Shown here: positions 13,712-52,467 of the stretch, piece by piece
How the letters are laid out: each line of letters starts with the position of its first letter
Numbering within the stretch: the first letter of the stretch is position 1
From: Oscillospiraceae bacterium
GTDB taxonomy: Bacteria; Bacillota; Clostridia; Oscillospirales; CAG-272
Assembly: GCA_015064255.1 (NCBI GenBank)
Contig: SVSP01000004.1
Span: 1 to 64,000, forward strand
DNA: 64,000 nucleotides
Direction of reading: 5' to 3'
The notes under the pieces: model-generated
Told to the model about the DNA's origin: nothing
What the model saw: the letters and a program-made list of their open reading frames with translations, nothing else
Database searches by the model: none
Program-made: the position numbers and the translations under genes

Positions 13712-15703
13712 ATGGAAAGAAGAGAACAGCTTGTTTCTCTCGTTTCCGTTTTTTCGGACAGCGAAGAAACCAAATTAAAATTCGCAGAGCATCTTGAAGA
13801 ACTTTTCGACGTTATCTCCCCCCAAAAGATAGGCGAAGCTTTCTGCAAAGCAACTGAAAATAACGATTACGTATCGGCGGTGAAGATATGCGCTGATTAT
13901 TACCGCAGTAAAGACTCTGCGAAGATACCAGAGCTTTCCGGACACGGCTCGTATAATGAAAAGGCTGTAGAAAACACTCTTGTCGGTACTTTTACCGTTG
14001 TAAATATAGATTGGACTTTTCCCGAAGGAAAAGTGGACTTTCTGTTTGATCCCACAAATATTCTGAAGCCGATAAATCACGAATGGCTCTGGCAGTTTAA
14101 CCGTCATGCGTACTGGAACGACCTTGCAAGAGCATATACCGCAACGTGTGATGAAAAATACGCACGTGTCTTCAGAGATCAGCTTGTAAGCTGGATAGAA
14201 CAAACCGATATACCGAAAAATTGGAACGGTCCGGGAAGCGCTTGGCGTACTATAGAGTGCGGCATAAGACTTCTCGGAAGCTGGCAGATAGCTTTCGACG
14301 CTTTCAGAAAATCAAGCTCTGTTGAAGATACGGTGCTTCTTCTTATGATAGCGTCTATGCACAGACAGTCGGTGCATCTTGTGAAAAATCCTACGGGTAA
14401 AAACTGGCTTATGATGGAATCAAACGGAGTTTATACCTTCAGCTCGCTCTTTACAGAGCTTTCCGATTCCAAAGAAAACAGAAAAATTGCCGCGAGCCGT
14501 CTGCAGGAAGAGCTTGAAGCGCAAATACTTCCGGACGGTATGCATAACGAGCTTTCGCCCGATTATCAGAGCGTTGTCCTTAATTGCGGACTGAATTTTT
14601 ACAGTATCGCATATGAACTCGGTGTGGCAGACGAAATCCCCGAAAGCTTTACGGAACTTCTCAAAAAGACCGTAAATGCCGCAATACAGCTTTCTACTCC
14701 CGCACTTACACAGCCGCGTACAAACGATACGTACACGATAAAAACTTCGAATTTTACTTCGCGTGCAGAAAAGCTTCTCGGAAAATATCCCGAATATATT
14801 TATGTGAATACAGCGCGTAAAGAGGGAAATCCGCCCGAAGGTGAAAGTGCTTCCGCATTTCTTCCGTATGCGGGATTGGCGCTTATGCGATCCGATTGGA
14901 GCGCGGATGCTATGTATATGTGCTTTGACGTAGGACCTCTCGGAACGGCGCACTTCCATCAGGATAAGCTGAATATAAATATCTATAAAGGAAACGAAGA
15001 GCTTATTTATGACGACGGCGGCGGACAGTATGAAATATCCGATATGAGAGATTACGCTATATCCGGATACGGTCATAATACCGTTCTTGTTGACAGGCTT
15101 GCACAGTACAGAAAGGCTCCGCTTGTGTCGGAATCTGCGATCGACGCGGGATGGGTAACAAATCTCGAGTTCGATTATGCATATTCTGTGTATGATGATA
15201 CTTACGGAAAAGAAATGATAAGACCTGCAACGCATAAAAGAGAAGTACGCTTCTGTAAGCCCGGATTTTTCTGTGTTGCGGATACTCTTACGTCAACAGA
15301 CGGAAAATCTCACGATTACGAGTTGATCTTTCATCTTGATACAACGAAAATAAAAATGCTAAAAGAGTATAAAAACGGCGTAATATCCGATTTCGGAAGA
15401 AAGTATGAAATCGTTATGATACCGATAGATGACTCGGAAGATGCAGAGCTGAAAGCCTTGTCGGGGGAAAGCGGTGAAAACATCCGCGGTTGGTATAACG
15501 GAAGAAACGAGGCAAATCTTCATAAAGCAGTTACCGTTTCAAGAGAAGTAAAAAATGTTAGAAATTGCAAATTCACGACACTTTTGTTTCCCGTAAAAAG
15601 AGGCGACTCTCTTCCTAATGTCAAACAACTTTCCGACGGAAAGATAGAAGTTTTCTTCGATGGTAATAAATATAATATCAACATCAATGCACTCAATAAA
15701 TAA
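13712..15703 (+). CDS. Heparinase II/III family protein (polysaccharide lyase-like)
   Basis: Alpha/alpha toroid N-terminus plus GTAHFHQDKLNINIYKGNEELIYDDGGGQYEISDMRDYAISGYGHNTVLVDR. Confidence 0.85.
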   Translation: MERREQLVSLVSVFSDSEETKLKFAEHLEELFDVISPQKIGEAFCKATENNDYVSAVKICADYYRSKDSAKIPELSGHGSYNEKAVENTLVGTFTVVNIDWTFPEGKVDFLFDPTNILKPINHEWLWQFNRHAYWNDLARAYTATCDEKYARVFRDQLVSWIEQTDIPKNWNGPGSAWRTIECGIRLLGSWQIAFDAFRKSSSVEDTVLLLMIASMHRQSVHLVKNPTGKNWLMMESNGVYTFSSLFTELSDSKENRKIAASRLQEELEAQILPDGMHNELSPDYQSVVLNCGLNFYSIAYELGVADEIPESFTELLKKTVNAAIQLSTPALTQPRTNDTYTIKTSNFTSRAEKLLGKYPEYIYVNTARKEGNPPEGESASAFLPYAGLALMRSDWSADAMYMCFDVGPLGTAHFHQDKLNINIYKGNEELIYDDGGGQYEISDMRDYAISGYGHNTVLVDRLAQYRKAPLVSESAIDAGWVTNLEFDYAYSVYDDTYGKEMIRPATHKREVRFCKPGFFCVADTLTSTDGKSHDYELIFHLDTTKIKMLKEYKNGVISDFGRKYEIVMIPIDDSEDAELKALSGESGENIRGWYNGRNEANLHKAVTVSREVKNVRNCKFTTLLFPVKRGDSLPNVKQLSDGKIEVFFDGNKYNININALNK

Positions 15704-15748: not shown

Positions 15749-17923
15749 ATGAAACAAGTTAATATTACCGAAATAAAAGAAAAATTAAGATCTGAAGCTA
15801 TATATGCGCTGACACATAAGCCGATAATAACATACTCTTCGGACAGGGTTAAGGTTTGGCACGATGCATTTCTTTTGACAAGAGATCTGCCGACACAGCC
15901 GCAGAAATATTCTAAATCGCTCAAATATTTCCTTGAAAATATTTCAATACCGATTAATGAGAATGATATCCTTATTGGTAGAATGGTCGAAGAGAGCTTT
16001 ACCGAAGAGGAAGAAAAGGTCTTTCAGCAAAAATATATGTCAGAGCCGGGATGCTTCGGAAGACCCGATTTTGTTACCGAAAACGGACACTGTTCGCTCA
16101 GATGGGATATTCTTTTTGCCAAAGGAATATCGGGACTTAAAGCCGATGCGGAAGGATGGCTCGGGCATTATAAGAAAAACGGTAACGAATCGCAGGTGGA
16201 TTTCCTTGAGTCTGCTATAGGTATGTATGAGGCTATTATAATATATCTTAAAAGAAGCGCGCAAGAGTGCCGTAAATTCGGGAAAATCGAGCAGGCAGAG
16301 ATACTTGATAAGATTTCTTTTTCCGCACCCGACGACTTCTTCTCGGCAATGCAGCTCTACTGGACGGTAACATTTATCATATGCGCATATCTTGCATCAA
16401 ACCCGACGCTCACGCTCGGCAGACCCGACCTTTTCCTGTACGATTTCTATAAGAAGGATATAGAGGAAAAGAAGCTTACAAAGGAAGAAGTATCGCTTAT
16501 TGTCGCCGACTTTTACGCTAAAAATAACCTCATAATGGGTAGAGGTGAGCATCAGATCAGCGAGATATATGAAAATTCAACCTGCACGGGGTGGCACAGA
16601 ATACTTGCATACGACGCTCCGCAGTATCTCATTCTTTCGGGAACAGATCCCGAAACGGGAAAAACTGTCGCGAATGAGCTTACGGAAATTTTTGTCGATG
16701 AAATCGTACCTGCATATAAAAATCCTGTAATAGAATTCCGTTATTCAAAGGGAGTAGGGGAAAATTATCCTAAGCTGTGGAATAATTTTGTTTCCAAAAT
16801 CGCAGACAGCGCCTCGGCTATGATATATAACGATATAGGCATTATTGAAGCATATATCAAAGACGGATTCGACTTTAAGACTGCCGCATCTTACGAGCAT
16901 TACGGCTGTAACTGGCCGACGATACCTACTACCGATACCATAGGTCCTTCTTTGCAGACAAACGTGACCCGAGTGATGTATTCGATTATTCACGATTATG
17001 CGGAGCGCGAAGATGAATTTGACCGTGAACGCTTTTTGTCTGCGGTGTATGATACTTTTTTTGACATATACGCTAAAAGAGCACAGGTAATAAAAGAAAT
17101 AAGCGCGAAAAATCTTCCCAACAGTAAGCATATAAAGCTTGTTGCGTGTTTTTCAAAGAATAATATAGAAAATGCGGGGCTTTATTACGAAAACATAAAC
17201 GTACTGGCAAGTATCGGCACGGTATGCTCGGCTATCGATATGGCTGTAGCTATGGAGTATATGTGCAAGGAAAAGGGATATTCTCCCAAAAAGCTTATGG
17301 AGATATGCGACCGTGATTTTGAAAACGACGAATATACGCTCGCACTTTGTAAGAACGCTCCAAAAGCGGGACAAAACGATGAGCTTGCGGATTTTTACGT
17401 TGAAAGAATTCCGCGACTTGTCTTGGATGCGGCTGAAAGGTCGCTGAAGGATATTCCGAGTCACTGTCACATCCGTTATTGCAGCGAATCGGATACGGGA
17501 CATATTGCCATAGGTGCTTCGCTCGGTGCTACCCCCGACGGAAGACGCAAAGGTGAATCTATAAGCCAAAATAATCAGCCTTCCCACGGAAGCGCTAAAA
17601 ACGGTATAACGGCTATGCTTTCGTCTATGAATAAGATGCCGCTTGACAGACTGTTTTCGGGTGCTATGAACGTTACGATACAGCCGAAAAACTTCGCAGG
17701 CGAGGAAGGTATTGCAAAGCTTGCCAAGATAATGGAGGTTTATTTCGAAAAGGGCGGTCTTCAGCTTCAGATAAGCGCTGTGGACAGAGATAAGCTTCTC
17801 GCGGCACAGAACGATCCGGACAGCTACCGCGACCTTATGGTGCGTGTTACGGGATACAGTGCCGTCTTTGTCGATCTCAGCCGCAGAGCACAAGACGATA
17901 TAATTGCACGAGATGCGCTGTGA
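15749..17923 (+). CDS. Glycyl radical enzyme of the pyruvate formate-lyase superfamily, substrate unknown (copy 1)
   Basis: C-terminal glycyl radical motif MVRVTGYSAVFVDLS (G702), active-site loop YEHYGCNWP (C387), PFL domain. Confidence 0.9.
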   Translation: MKQVNITEIKEKLRSEAIYALTHKPIITYSSDRVKVWHDAFLLTRDLPTQPQKYSKSLKYFLENISIPINENDILIGRMVEESFTEEEEKVFQQKYMSEPGCFGRPDFVTENGHCSLRWDILFAKGISGLKADAEGWLGHYKKNGNESQVDFLESAIGMYEAIIIYLKRSAQECRKFGKIEQAEILDKISFSAPDDFFSAMQLYWTVTFIICAYLASNPTLTLGRPDLFLYDFYKKDIEEKKLTKEEVSLIVADFYAKNNLIMGRGEHQISEIYENSTCTGWHRILAYDAPQYLILSGTDPETGKTVANELTEIFVDEIVPAYKNPVIEFRYSKGVGENYPKLWNNFVSKIADSASAMIYNDIGIIEAYIKDGFDFKTAASYEHYGCNWPTIPTTDTIGPSLQTNVTRVMYSIIHDYAEREDEFDRERFLSAVYDTFFDIYAKRAQVIKEISAKNLPNSKHIKLVACFSKNNIENAGLYYENINVLASIGTVCSAIDMAVAMEYMCKEKGYSPKKLMEICDRDFENDEYTLALCKNAPKAGQNDELADFYVERIPRLVLDAAERSLKDIPSHCHIRYCSESDTGHIAIGASLGATPDGRRKGESISQNNQPSHGSAKNGITAMLSSMNKMPLDRLFSGAMNVTIQPKNFAGEEGIAKLAKIMEVYFEKGGLQLQISAVDRDKLLAAQNDPDSYRDLMVRVTGYSAVFVDLSRRAQDDIIARDAL

Positions 17924-17995
17924 CATTTTCTGATACTTCCGAATAGGTTGATAAACAAATAAATCTGAGTATCTGACGTTAAAGGAGACTTTACT

Positions 17996-20170
17996 ATGAA
18001 ACAACATAATATTAGCGAAATCAAAGCAAAAATGAGAGAAGAAGCGATCTACGCTCTCACACACAAGCCGATAATAACCTATTCTTCGGACAGAGTTAAG
18101 GTCTGGCAAGATGCGTTTTTGATAAGCAAGGATCTGCCGACACATCCGCAGAAATATTCTGTTTCGCTTAAATATTTCCTTGAAAATATCTCTATTCCGA
18201 TAGATGAAAATGACGTTCTTATCGGAAGAATGGTGGAAGAGAGCTTTACCGAAGAGGAAGAAAAGGTCTTTCAGCAAAAATATATGTCAGAGCCCGGATG
18301 CTTCGGAAAACCCGATTTTATAATCGAAAACGGACATTGTTCGCTCAGATGGGATATACTTTTTGCAAAGGGTATTTCGGGACTTAAAGCCGATGCTGAA
18401 AAATGGCTTGAGCATTACAAGAAAAACGGCAACGAAAGTCAGGTTGACTTTATTACTTCTGCTATCGGTATGTACGATGCAACTATAATCTACCTTAAAA
18501 GAAGTGCAGAGGAATGCCGTAAATTCGGAAAGATCGAGCAGGCTGAAATATTTGATAAGCTTTCGGTATCTGCACCCGATAGCTTCTATTCGGCAATGCA
18601 GATATACTGGACGGTAGAGTTTATTATCTGTGCGTATCTTGCAGGAAATCCGACGCTTACGCTCGGCAGACCCGACCTTTTCCTATACGATTTCTATAAG
18701 AAGGATATAGAATCGGGTAAACTGACAAAAGAAGAAGCCTCTCTTATTATCGCGGACTTTTACGCTAAAAACAACCTCATAATGGGTAGAGGTGAGCATC
18801 AGATTAGCGAAAAATATGAAAACGAAAAATGCACGGGCTGGCACAGAATACTTGCATACGATGCTCCGCAGTATCTCGTTCTTTCTGGAACAGACCCAAA
18901 AACGGGCAAATCGGTAGCAAACGAGCTTACAGAGCTCTTTATTGACGAGATAGTACCCGCGTATAAAAATCCGGTTATAGAATTCCGTTATTCAAAGGGA
19001 GTAGCCGAAAATTATCCCGAAATGTGGAAGAACTTCGTTTCAAAGCTTGCAAACAGCGCATCGGCTATGATTTATAACGATATAAGCCTCATCCCGATGT
19101 ACCTGAAAGATGGATTTGACTTTAAGGAAGCTGCCGCATATGAGCACTACGGTTGTAACTGGCCGACAATTCCGTGTAAGGATACTCCTGACCACGGTTT
19201 TCAGGGTAACGTATGCCGTTTAATGTACGGTGCTATTCATAAGTATGCGGAAAATGCAGATGAATTTGACCGCGATGGCTTTTTGACGTCTCTTTATGAC
19301 TCGTTCTATGAAGATTATAAGAATAAAGCAGAACAAATAAAGGCAACAAGAGCAGTAAACGTACCGAATAGCGGACGCATAAAGCTTTACTCCTGTTTTT
19401 CTGCGGATAATATAGAAAAAGCGGGACTTTATTACGAAAACTGGAATATGATAATGAATCTCGGCACGATATGCTCGGCAATAGATATGGCTGTGGCAAT
19501 GGAATATATGTGCAAAGAAAAGGGGTATTCTCCCAAGAAGCTTATGGAAATTTGCGACCGTGATTTCGAAAACGATGAATATACCTTGGCACTTTGTAAA
19601 AACGCTCCGAAGGCGGGAGAAAACGATGAGCTTGCCGACTTCTATGTTGAAAAGATTACAAATCTCCTTATAGATGCGGGCGAATCTGCAATGCAGGGTA
19701 TTCCGAAGCATTGCCGTCTGCGTTTCTGTACCGAATTTGATACCTCGCATATAGGTATAGGTGCCGGAATAGGAGCGACACCCGACGGAAGACGTAAAGC
19801 TATGCCTGTAAGCCAGAATAATCAGCCCGCCCACGGAAGTGCTAAAAACGGTATAACAGCAATGCTTTCATCAATAGCTAAAATGCCCTTTGACAGACTT
19901 GCATCGGGTGCCATGAACGTTACTATACAGCCTAAAAACTTTGCGGGCGAGGAAGGTATCGCAAAGCTTGCCAAGATAATGGAAGTTTATTTTGAAAAGG
20001 GCGGTATGCAGATGCAGATAAGCGCAGTTGATAGAGATAAGCTTCTCGCGGCGCAAAAAGATCCCGATAGCTATCGCGACCTTATGGTGCGCGTTACCGG
20101 ATACAGCGCGGTATTCGTTGATCTCAGCCGCAGAGCACAGGAAGATATAATAGAGAGAGACGCGCTTTAA
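17996..20170 (+). CDS. Glycyl radical enzyme of the pyruvate formate-lyase superfamily, substrate unknown (copy 2)
   Basis: Same length (724 aa) and motif positions (C387 in YEHYGCNWP, G702 in RVTGYSA) as copy 1. Confidence 0.9.
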   Translation: MKQHNISEIKAKMREEAIYALTHKPIITYSSDRVKVWQDAFLISKDLPTHPQKYSVSLKYFLENISIPIDENDVLIGRMVEESFTEEEEKVFQQKYMSEPGCFGKPDFIIENGHCSLRWDILFAKGISGLKADAEKWLEHYKKNGNESQVDFITSAIGMYDATIIYLKRSAEECRKFGKIEQAEIFDKLSVSAPDSFYSAMQIYWTVEFIICAYLAGNPTLTLGRPDLFLYDFYKKDIESGKLTKEEASLIIADFYAKNNLIMGRGEHQISEKYENEKCTGWHRILAYDAPQYLVLSGTDPKTGKSVANELTELFIDEIVPAYKNPVIEFRYSKGVAENYPEMWKNFVSKLANSASAMIYNDISLIPMYLKDGFDFKEAAAYEHYGCNWPTIPCKDTPDHGFQGNVCRLMYGAIHKYAENADEFDRDGFLTSLYDSFYEDYKNKAEQIKATRAVNVPNSGRIKLYSCFSADNIEKAGLYYENWNMIMNLGTICSAIDMAVAMEYMCKEKGYSPKKLMEICDRDFENDEYTLALCKNAPKAGENDELADFYVEKITNLLIDAGESAMQGIPKHCRLRFCTEFDTSHIGIGAGIGATPDGRRKAMPVSQNNQPAHGSAKNGITAMLSSIAKMPFDRLASGAMNVTIQPKNFAGEEGIAKLAKIMEVYFEKGGMQMQISAVDRDKLLAAQKDPDSYRDLMVRVTGYSAVFVDLSRRAQEDIIERDAL

Positions 20171-20213: not shown

Positions 20214-20504
20214 ATGATAAGACATATTTGTATGTTCAAAATAAAGGAAGAAAATAAAGAAAAAAATCTGGCGGACCTTTTAGAAAAGGTTCAGTCGCTC
20301 AGGGCAATTTCGGAGATAAAGCGCTTTGATGTGGTTCTCAATGTTGAAGGTACTCCCGAAACAAACTACGACGTGTCGCTTATTTTCGATTTTGATACCA
20401 TTGCAGACCTTGAAACTTATCAGAAGAACGAGATTCACGTGAATTTCGGTAAGTTTGTGTCTGCCATGCGTGAAGCAAGAGCTTGCATAGACTACGAGAT
20501 GTAA
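20214..20504 (+). CDS. Dabb (stress-responsive alpha/beta barrel) family protein
   Basis: MIRHICMFKIKEE...ETYQKNEIHVNFGKFV pattern. Confidence 0.75.
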   Translation: MIRHICMFKIKEENKEKNLADLLEKVQSLRAISEIKRFDVVLNVEGTPETNYDVSLIFDFDTIADLETYQKNEIHVNFGKFVSAMREARACIDYEM

Positions 20505-21162: not shown

Positions 21163-21191
21163 TTGACATTTAAAGCTGTTTGTGATAAAAT
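21163..21191 (+). promoter_or_regulatory. Sigma-A promoter
   Basis: TTGACA-N17-TAAAAT upstream of the SGNH hydrolase. Confidence 0.65.
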
Positions 21192-21239: not shown

Positions 21240-22187
21240 ATGAAGCTTTCAAACAAATCAATAAAGCCGCTTGTACACGGCGTATATCAGACAAAAGAGG
21301 AAGACGGATATCTTACCTTCTATCATTATGACGACGCGCAGATCGAATATCTTAGATTCAATGAATTCTTCTATGACCGTGCAAGGGCTTCGTCTTCTGT
21401 AACACTTGAATTTGAAACAGATGCAAAAGAGATAGGATTTGATTATAAGATATTCTGGGTAGGATCAAAGGATACCGTTGACGTATATGCGGATAACGTT
21501 CCCGTTTGTATTACGCATCTTAAAGCTCTTGCAGATAAGGGCAAGATGGCTTTTAGCCTTCCCGAAGGTAAAAAGAAGCTGACAGTGTATTTCCCGATAG
21601 ACGTTAAAATCGGTATAAAGAATCTCCGCATAGAAGGAAAATGGCGTAATATCAAGAAAAAAGGACCTAAAGTTCTTTGGATGGGCGACTCCATTACACA
21701 GGGTTACGGTACCTTTATTACGAGCGAAACATACGTAAACGTTGCTATGCGTAAGCTTGGATACGACGTGCTTAATCAGGGTATAGGCGGATACTATTTC
21801 GATGCTAACGTCATTACTCCTATGGAAGGATATACACCCGATAAGATAATTATAGCGATGGGTACAAATCAGCACACTTGGTCGGATAATGAACGTAGAG
21901 TAGCAGAATATTTTGAAAAGCTTGATAAGGTCTATAACGGAATCCCCACCCTTGTTCTTACTCCTATATGGCGTTGCAATCCCGGTACGGATATGAAGAA
22001 GCTTCTCGAAATAGCAGAAATAATAAAGGTAGAATGTGCAAAGTATCCGAATATAAAGGTTGTTGACGGATTTGAACTCGTTCCCAATCTTCCCGATTAC
22101 TTCTGCGATGCACTTCATCCCAACGCACTCGGCGGAGAGGTTTACGGAAACAATCTCGTAAATAAGATCAAAGAACTTAAATTTTAA
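21240..22187 (+). CDS. SGNH/GDSL-type hydrolase, probable carbohydrate esterase
   Basis: LWMGDSITQGYGTF block I, GIGGYYFD, MGTNQH, DALHPN catalytic block. Confidence 0.85.
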   Translation: MKLSNKSIKPLVHGVYQTKEEDGYLTFYHYDDAQIEYLRFNEFFYDRARASSSVTLEFETDAKEIGFDYKIFWVGSKDTVDVYADNVPVCITHLKALADKGKMAFSLPEGKKKLTVYFPIDVKIGIKNLRIEGKWRNIKKKGPKVLWMGDSITQGYGTFITSETYVNVAMRKLGYDVLNQGIGGYYFDANVITPMEGYTPDKIIIAMGTNQHTWSDNERRVAEYFEKLDKVYNGIPTLVLTPIWRCNPGTDMKKLLEIAEIIKVECAKYPNIKVVDGFELVPNLPDYFCDALHPNALGGEVYGNNLVNKIKELKF

Positions 22188-22208: not shown

Positions 22209-23144
22209 ATGAAAAATCTTGAATTTAAAATCCATAATCCGATAGACGAAGGATGGTATGCAGACCCCGAAGCAAGATTTTATGAAGGCAAGTACGTAAT
22301 ATACGCTACAATGTCGCTTCCTTTTGACGATCAGCACAATCATGTTTGCTGGACTTCCGAAAATCTTACGGACTGGGAACGCCACGACGATATTATCGAT
22401 ATGTCGGGCTTTCCGTGGGCGACACGTGCTATCTGGGCACCGACCATCATAGAAAAGAACGGAAAGTATTATTATATTTTCGCATCAAACGATATTCACA
22501 GCGATAAGGAAAAGGGCGGACTTGAAATAGCTGTTTCGGACTCCCCCACAGGACCGTTCAAGGCTCTTCTCGACCGTCCGCTGATAAACGAATTTCATAA
22601 CGGTGCACAGCCGATCGACGCTCACCTCTTTAAAGATGACGACGGTACGGTATATCTTCTTTACGGCGGCTGGCGACACTGCAATATCGCGAAAATGAAT
22701 GAGGATATGACAGGATTCGTTCCGCATCCCGACGGAAGCATTATAAAGGAAATAACCCCGCCCGATTACGTTGAAGGTCCTTGTATGTTCAAAAAGGACG
22801 GAAAGTATTATTTTATGTGGTCGGCAGGCGGCTGGACGAACGGTACTTACCGCGTAAATACCGCATTTGCCGATACTCCGTACGGACCCTTTGAGGACTA
22901 TAACGAGGTTCTTTCAACTGGTGACAGTAAAATAGCAAACGGCCCCGGACATAACGGATATATCTATATTCCCGAAGAAGATCTTTATCTTATCGTATAT
23001 CATCGCCATAAGCCCGAAATCAAAGACGGAAACGCGCGCTTTATGTGCATAGACGTAATGAACTTCGGTGAAAACGGAAGAATTCTTCCCGTTACTATGA
23101 CGATAGATTGGGAATATAAAAACGGTAAAGCGACAATACTCTGA
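22209..23144 (+). CDS. Glycoside hydrolase family 43-like protein
   Basis: GWYADPEARFYEGKYVIYAT, WAPTIIEKNGKYYYIFAS, VEGPCMFKKDGKYYFMWSAGG five-bladed propeller motifs. Confidence 0.88.
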   Translation: MKNLEFKIHNPIDEGWYADPEARFYEGKYVIYATMSLPFDDQHNHVCWTSENLTDWERHDDIIDMSGFPWATRAIWAPTIIEKNGKYYYIFASNDIHSDKEKGGLEIAVSDSPTGPFKALLDRPLINEFHNGAQPIDAHLFKDDDGTVYLLYGGWRHCNIAKMNEDMTGFVPHPDGSIIKEITPPDYVEGPCMFKKDGKYYFMWSAGGWTNGTYRVNTAFADTPYGPFEDYNEVLSTGDSKIANGPGHNGYIYIPEEDLYLIVYHRHKPEIKDGNARFMCIDVMNFGENGRILPVTMTIDWEYKNGKATIL

Positions 23145-50241: not shown

Positions 50242-52467
50242 ATGAATCAGTGGAGAAATTTTAAAGAAGGCTTATGGAACAGTGAAATCAACGTAAGCGA
50301 TTTTATAAAGAGAAACTATACTCCTTATTTTGGTGATTCCGATTTCCTGCAGGGTACAACCGAACGTACCACTTCGGTAAGAAAAAAAGTTGAGGAGCTT
50401 CTTATAGAAGAAAATAATAAAGGCGGAGTTCTTAATATAGATACCGACCACGTTTCTTCTATACTTTCTCACAAGCCGGGATACGTGGATAAAGAAAAAG
50501 ATATAATCGTCGGACTTCAGACAGACGAGCCTCTTAAGAGAGCAGTAAATCCGTTTGCGGGATACAGAAATGCCGTTCAGGCGTGTCAGGCGTACGGATA
50601 TGAAATAGGCGAAAATATCAATAATGAATTCAAATACCGTACAACACATAATACGGGTGTTTTCAGAGTATATACCGAAACAATGAGAAAAGCAAGACAC
50701 GCAGGTGTTCTTACGGGACTTCCCGATGCATATGCACGCGGAAGAATTATAGGTGACTATCGACGTATAGCACTTTACGGTATGGATTATCTTGTAAAAG
50801 AGCGTGCGCTTGATAAAAAACGTATAAGCGAGCGTGATATGGATGCTTCTACGATTCAGTTGATAGAGGACATCGAAAAACAGCTCGAATTTATGAAACA
50901 GCTTGTAGAAATGGCAAAGGAATACGGTTGTGATATTACGCGCCCTGCGGATAATGCTCACGAAGCAATTCAGTGGCTCTACTTCGGTTATCTTGGCGCG
51001 GTTAAGGAACAGAACGGCGCGGCTAACAGTATCGGACGTATATCGTCGTTTATAGATATTTATATTCAGCGTGATATTGAAGAGGGCGCGCTTGATGAGC
51101 TTCACGCGCAGGAGCTTATTGACGACCTTGTAATAAAAATGCGTCTTGTGCGCCATCTCCGTACACCCGAATATAACAGCCTGTTCGCGGGTGACCCCGT
51201 TTGGGTTACTTGCTCGCTTGCGGGAATGTGTGATGATGGTACTACCTTGGTTACAAAGACCTGTTACAGATTCCTTCAGACTCTTTACAATCTCGGACCG
51301 AGCGCAGAGCCGAATATTACGGTACTTTGGTCGCAAAATCTGCCCGAACCCTTCAAGAAATTCTGTGCAAAGGTATCAATAGATACAGACTCGATACAGT
51401 ATGAAAATGACGATGTTATGCGTAAGGATTTCGGCGACGATTATTCTATCGCTTGCTGCGTTTCCGCTATGAAGACAGGAAAACAGATGCAGTTCTTCGG
51501 TGCGAGATGTAATCTTGCAAAGGTGCTTCTTATGGCGCTCAACGGCGGTAAGGACGAGATATACGGTGAACAGATAGCTCCCGAGGGTAAAATCTTCGAA
51601 GAAGAAGTGCTCGACTATGAACAGGTGCTTGAAGCGTTTAAATATTACGCGGCGTGGATGGCAAAGCTCTACGTAAATACGATGAACGTTATCCACTATA
51701 TGCACGACAGATATGCGTACGAAAGACTTATGATGTCACTTCACGACGTAGAACCCGAAAGACTTATGGCATTCGGAATAAGCGGTCTGAGCGTTCTTAC
51801 GGACAGCCTCAGCGCGATCAAGTATGCGAAAGTTAAGGCGATCAAGGACGAGCGCGGAATAATCGTTGACTTTGAAACAGAGGGCGATTTCCCCAAATAC
51901 GGAAACGATGACGACAGAGTTGACTCGATAGCAAAGTGGATAACAGAATTCTTCTATGCAGAGCTTTGTAAGACAAAGGCATACAGGGGAGCAAAGCACA
52001 CTCTGTCTATCCTTACAATAACCTCAAACGTTGTTTACGGCTCGAAAACAGGCGCCACACCCGACGGAAGAAAGAAAGGCGAGCCCTTTGCACCCGGCGC
52101 TAACCCGATGCACGGACGAGATAAGGAAGGCGCACTTTCATCGCTCAACTCGGTAGCTAAAATATGCTACGATTGCTGTCAGGACGGTATTTCCAATACG
52201 TTTTCGATAACTCCCGATACTCTCGGTGACAGCGACGAAACGAGAGTACAGAATCTTGTGGACGTTCTTGACGGATATTTTGTACAGGATGCTCACCATC
52301 TGAACGTAAACGTACTCAACCGTCAAAAGCTTATAGATGCTATGAACGATCCGACGCTTTATCCTTCACTTACGATAAGAGTAAGCGGATATGCGGTCAA
52401 CTTCAATAAGCTTACGAAGGATAAGCAGCTTGAGGTAATTTCGAGAACATTCCACGAAAAAATGTAA
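50242..52467 (+). CDS. pflB: Formate C-acetyltransferase (pyruvate formate-lyase)
   Basis: [26 protein letters not shown] catalytic Cys-Cys; [13 protein letters not shown] glycyl radical motif. Confidence 0.97.

Follow-up and report, generated by a model that had tools for sequence, protein, structure and literature searches.

The two glycyl radical enzymes (GREs) encoded in tandem in a 64,000-nucleotide stretch of an Oscillospiraceae genome (assembly GCA_015064255.1, contig SVSP01000004.1, positions 1 to 64,000; the whole stretch is called the window here) are marked by their sequences as members of a previously uncharacterized subfamily, a new variant inside the GRE superfamily. The same evidence identifies them as an old duplication with homogenized ends and paralog-specific active-site segments. 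Several of the most difficult anaerobic reactions of the gut are performed by GREs. Many abundant gut GREs have no known function (2024 review, PMC11574389). Both genes lie on the forward strand, GRE1 at 15749..17923 and GRE2 at 17996..20170, and each begins with ATG behind a good ribosome-binding site. An earlier note on this DNA had described two adjacent GREs of 724 residues that each have Cys387, Gly702, and the loop YEHYGCNWP; the open reading frames (ORFs) confirm that description. The Gly loop, RVTGYSA, is likewise common to both, and the matches to PF02901 (PFL-like) and PF01228 (glycyl radical) are far over the cut-offs. The proteins align without gaps across all 724 residues, with 584 identities (81%). 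Trp389 in each occupies the position of the Glu of eliminase GREs; the Cys387-Asn388-Trp389 codons, computed from the ORF starts, are at 16907..16915 in GRE1 and 19154..19162 in GRE2.

The pair falls in a monophyletic group of 21 Clostridia sequences, the CNW clade, supported at 100/100 on a stem that measures 1.06 changes per site. The Cys-Asn-Trp motif is invariant in all 21 members, as are the active-site Cys and the Gly loop, and most GREs outside the clade have Glu at the third position. The replacement of Glu by Trp recorded in the earlier note is therefore real and a property of the whole clade. Its view of GCxE as the usual motif also stands: the loops read GCVE in PflD, GCIE in YbiW, and GCVE in HypD (for which a sequence over the curated HypD cut-off was used), and Glu is found two residues after Cys in 12 of the 14 other GREs of the host genome that were compared, the exceptions being its pyruvate formate-lyase (PFL) and a GRE with Asp. 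The latter (C33, L019:7759-9951) has the loop LCQDMNIPG and adjoins an activase and a URO-D-family protein. A second hallmark of the clade is the hexapeptide GRGEHQ at residues 264-269, again present in 21 of 21 members, where most other GREs are gapped; the insertion is also apparent in an hmmsearch alignment with glycerol dehydratase. Its codons are at 18785..18802 in GRE2, with the GRE1 equivalent at 16538-16555, both on the forward strand.

The clade seems to be thinly spread. Roughly 1200 genomes were sampled, and in each of them no more than the two best candidates were scored. Members turned up in about ten of 396 genomes of the order, and the 388 genomes sampled from the class added four more. 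In 398 genomes of the phylum no further member was confirmed; matches to the clade profile reached about 300-340 bits, and the loops that were read have other motifs. A distant GRE of the host itself (C18, L021:7592-9808) likewise carries GCNW in its active-site loop. It was rejected as a member, being 20-22% identical, devoid of the GRGEHQ insertion, and outside the 100/100 branch; given this protein, Trp at the second position after Cys may have arisen more than once. A sequence with GCCN (L035) was left out of the clade, and an RGEH string in another (L072) was rejected as an equivalent of GRGEHQ since it lies at residue 73 and is unrelated.

None of the characterized GREs compared is close. 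The highest identity of any clade member to those aligned is about 27%, GRE1 and GRE2 are 20-23% identical to PflD, YbiW, and HypD, and both score far under every NCBIfam equivalog cut-off. Among the best profile matches are glycerol dehydratase (PDB 1r8w/1r9d) and CutC/propanediol dehydratase, at 331, 325, and 304 bits. The pair shares with glycerol dehydratase and CutC the Cys and Gly loops and, at His114, the equivalent of His164 of glycerol dehydratase. It differs from glycerol dehydratase in the substitution of Trp389 for Glu435, in the added GRGEHQ, in being about 60 residues shorter, and in the loss of counterparts to Glu277, His281, and Ser282, which profile alignment places at Tyr214, Pro219, and Thr220. 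Those three residues form the substrate hydroxyl-binding set of glycerol dehydratase. Thus, of the features that characterize GRE eliminases, the conserved His is present, while the Cys-x-Glu pair and an equivalog-level score are absent. YbiW and PflD are sugar-metabolism GREs, reportedly opening the rings of 1,5-anhydroglucitol-6-phosphate and anhydromannitol-6-phosphate; they are only 22-23% identical to the pair, they keep GCIE and GCVE, and the phosphotransferase system and fsa aldolase do not adjoin GRE1 and GRE2. HypD, HpsG/HpfG, and the hydroxyphenylacetate and indoleacetate decarboxylases have the superfamily and radical machinery in common with the pair, which scores 117-204 bits against their equivalog cut-offs of 1000-1150. 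PFL belongs to the same superfamily, but identity to it is 18%, the Cys-Cys pair is missing, and the equivalog score of 74-85 bits falls far below the cut-off of 994. The X-succinate synthase profiles (TutD/MasD) give 177-194 bits, as opposed to 331 for glycerol dehydratase.

The history of the pair can be read by comparison with a congener (G002, a Clostridia metagenome-assembled genome from sheep rectum, JAFXJH010000034.1), in which the same operon carries two 724-residue GREs, S1 and S2. Identity between GRE1 and GRE2 is 82-92% in segments of residues 1-360, 65% in 361-420, 55% in 421-480, 88% in 481-540, 63% in 541-600, and 85-92% thereafter (92% in 661-720). Divergence sits in two segments, 361-480 and 541-600; the earlier note had correctly singled out residues 390-480 as the most different but overlooked the second segment. 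Within the codons of these segments, 66 sites pair GRE1 with S1 and GRE2 with S2, three follow a within-genome pattern, and four a third pattern. The duplication is therefore older than the split between host and congener, and in the tree GRE1 and S1 are grouped with support of 100/100. Orthology is not followed in codons 1-360, where the three site patterns occur in the ratio 22:24:22; this region appears to have been homogenized, or its signal otherwise lost, most simply through gene conversion.

Forty amino acid positions show the same paralog-specific difference in both species, as against nine that are species-specific, and 30 of the 40 lie in the two divergent segments. Several of the retained differences are close to the active Cys: A368M, T394C, G399D, P400H, S401G, and T404G. 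For each orthologous pair dN/dS is about 0.09-0.10. Such purifying selection on both copies implies that both have been kept working, and the proposal in the earlier note that both are active is thus probably right. The sequence differences suggest that GRE1 and GRE2 probably differ in specificity. The pair amounts to a natural experiment, in that the copies, which differ chiefly in the active-site half, have been kept apart in two species.

Clues to the reaction come from the genes beside other members of the clade. In a first subclade the GRE adjoins an aldo/keto reductase (AKR) and an activase, both in the genus (L054 and C15a, a paralog in the host genome at L010) and in a member of the Ruminococcaceae (L023); in another genus of the family (L040) it adjoins the AKR alone. 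In a second subclade five members (L042, L043, L067, L068, and L069) have an SMP-30/gluconolactonase-like gene as a neighbor, identified in L067 and L068 by sequence likeness only. One of these loci (L069:1-7783) presents in a row an alcohol dehydrogenase (ADH), an FGGY kinase (404 bits, XylB cut-off 380), SMP-30, the aldolase DeoC (229 bits against a cut-off of 117), an activase, and a CNW GRE that stops at the contig end after 623 residues. The row looks like a complete deoxy-sugar pathway, and the aldolase and dehydrogenase logic associated with YbiW and PflD resembles it. A related row of ADH, FGGY kinase, SMP-30, and GRE occurs in another family (L043). Glycan-related genes near other clade GREs encode a fucosidase (L039), a GH38 mannosidase (L041), a GH4 protein (L044), and an aldose epimerase (L045). 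Such carbohydrate gene partners make sugar-derived substrates likely for the CNW GREs and suggest that the product is a carbonyl. Literature searches on GREs with uronates, new sugar-linked GREs, and GREs with DeoC returned nothing relevant. Two further tandem arrangements were seen. At L068:10534-12621 a second GRE, whose motif is CC (SACCTVD), lies between the CNW GRE and the activase, forming a tandem of unlike GREs, and at L048:8139-12634 (genome G055) two similar GREs of 725 and 730 residues with GCIE stand beside an ABC transporter of the branched-chain-amino-acid type.

The reading that we favor, tentatively and with a likelihood somewhat short of even, takes GRE1 and GRE2 to be active C–O lyases or dehydratases of sugars, polyols, or sugar acids that have diverged in function and have a relocated base, with an activase that acts in trans. 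A radical S-adenosylmethionine activase would generate the radical on Gly702. The activase is probably the one beside C15a, which matches TIGR02494 over the cut-off; it is proposed because GRE1, GRE2, and C15a have the identical Gly-loop stretch YRDLMVRVTGYSAVFV in common. Cys387 would abstract a hydrogen atom from a carbon of the substrate, and a neighboring C–O bond would break, yielding a deoxy-carbonyl product. Another group, possibly Glu267 or His268 of the GRGEHQ insertion, may take over the proton chemistry that Glu performs in glycerol dehydratase. The two copies would handle two related substrates freed from glycan by the heparinase-like lyase encoded beside the pair and by glycosidases. 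The retention of His114 supports C–O lyase activity.

Several observations weigh against this proposal. No activase gene adjoins the GRE pair in either the host or the congener, although the host genome holds about ten GRE-activase-like genes elsewhere. Assignment of the base comes from sequence, and the AlphaFold model of GRE2 (6 rows; pLDDT 48.5, pTM 0.43) cannot show whether Glu267 or His268 reaches the pocket. The hydroxyl-binding set of glycerol dehydratase is not conserved, its members being replaced by Tyr214 and Pro219/Thr220. The AKR and kinase neighbors are those of other clade members and not of GRE1 and GRE2, and the row with DeoC was observed once.

It had been argued in the earlier note that the chemistry is probably different from that of the known elimination enzymes. 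That holds insofar as the pair lies outside the characterized GRE families tested; a loss of elimination chemistry is not established. The neighboring genes in relatives suggest carbonyl-forming C–O cleavage, and GRGEHQ could supply another base. Reactions that need no base two residues after Cys, such as C–C cleavage, decarboxylation, or radical addition on a carbohydrate-derived acid in the manner of PFL or the X-succinate synthases, would account for the loss of the eliminase Glu in every CNW member. PFLs likewise lack Glu at this position, and the conserved Glu is held to be necessary for deprotonation in eliminases such as IseG (PMC6453916). Nevertheless, the matches to the PFL and TutD/MasD profiles are weaker than those to glycerol dehydratase and CutC (116-194 against 325-331 bits), the CC motif is absent, small-subunit genes of the X-succinate synthase type are not seen beside the pair in the ORF list of the window, and the partner genes resemble carbonyl reduction and aldolase steps, so that we consider chemistry of this kind unlikely. 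The favored C–O lyase activity could take the more specific form of 1,2-diol dehydration, with alditols or sugars converted to 2-deoxyaldoses, which the kinase and DeoC would cleave to triose phosphate and acetaldehyde for reduction by ADH. The L069 row reads as such a pathway, and the related row in L043 and the AKR of the first subclade agree with it. With DeoC seen a single time, however, beside a GRE cut by the contig end, and with GRE1 and GRE2 partnered by a lyase and a Dabb-domain protein instead of a kinase and an aldolase, this form is distinctly unlikely for the CNW GREs at large.

Two further alternatives concern the pair and not the reaction. Equal length, a tandem order kept in two species, homogenized ends, and a divergent middle are what might be expected if the two copies had a single function in common and worked only as a heterodimer. 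Much of the divergence, however, follows directly after the active Cys (residues 394 to 404 among the differences listed above) and not at an identified interface, and both radical residues are retained in each copy. To our knowledge, no GRE is known that pairs two full-length catalytic subunits as a heterodimer. Pocket segments that stay divergent in both species are explained no less well by two substrates, and an obligate heterodimer seems quite improbable. Still more so, to the point of being scarcely credible, is a redundant duplication for dosage with no functional difference: it would suit the 81% identity and the homogenized residues 1-360, but not the 40 paralog-specific positions kept in both species against nine species-specific ones.

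A broader proposal, which is speculative and on balance rather unlikely, is that the CNW clade constitutes a new mechanistic class of GREs, in which the base has moved to GRGEHQ, deoxy-sugars are made, and the pair is a unit of two specificities. Such enzymes may, for example, convert an alditol to a 2-deoxyaldose that is then processed by kinase and DeoC, in a lineage that may use many GREs for glycan breakdown. Because the clade lacks the catalytic Glu and keeps both radical residues, the relation between Cys-loop sequence and reaction type becomes directly testable.

The earlier note overlooked a probably co-transcribed heparinase-like gene and a small Dabb ORF on either side of the pair, along with 16 further GREs of the host. 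The first of these genes (13712..15703, forward strand) encodes a 663-residue heparinase II/III-family protein, probably a lyase of the PL12 heparinase-III-like type, and ends 45 nucleotides ahead of GRE1. Both of its Pfam domains, PF16889 and PF07940, match over cut-off, although the HepC equivalog score is 151 bits against a cut-off of 700. The nearest solved structures are those of Heparinase III (5jmd/4mmi, E 3e-28), to which about 450 residues match, yet the protein is divergent. An ortholog 74% identical occupies the equivalent place in the congener. Directly 3' of GRE2, behind the ribosome-binding site GGAGG, a gene at 20214..20504 (forward strand) encodes a Dabb-domain (dimeric alpha/beta barrel) protein of 96 residues (PF07876, E 3e-21), shorter than the usual length filter; its counterpart, 71% identical, also directly follows GRE2 in the congener. 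It is possible that this protein is a sugar-handling partner of the GREs. Since the four genes are closely spaced and have good ribosome-binding sites, we infer that they form one operon. Downstream, a TspO gene on the opposite strand separates the Dabb gene from an SGNH/GDSL esterase gene (21240..22187, forward strand; PF13472; 83% identical in the congener), which has a promoter-like site ahead of it at 21163. A GH43-family glycosidase gene (22209..23144, forward strand; PF04616) comes next; in the congener (L038) an alpha-galactosidase-type gene (Melibiase_2) takes its place. No obvious signal peptide was seen by eye in the heparinase-like, SGNH, or GH43 proteins.

In all, 18 GREs are encoded in the host genome (2.5 Mb in 59 contigs), mostly 20-30% identical to one another and including a PFL in the window at 50242-52467. 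Several of the others have an activase, and they lie near genes for GH127, GH51-type arabinofuranosidase, and GH95-type proteins, an enolase-superfamily dehydratase, DHDPS-family proteins, ADH, and short-chain dehydrogenase/reductase. Three congeners have 10, 19, and 8 GREs; in the 55 other relatives that were searched the number ranges from 0 to 11 and is mostly 0-5. The 8-19 GREs per genome of 1.8-2.5 Mb in the host genus indicate that gut Clostridia break down carbohydrates by a radical route that is still unexplored. Two other Clostridia genomes with CNW members, G281 and G485, encode 24 and 16 GREs.

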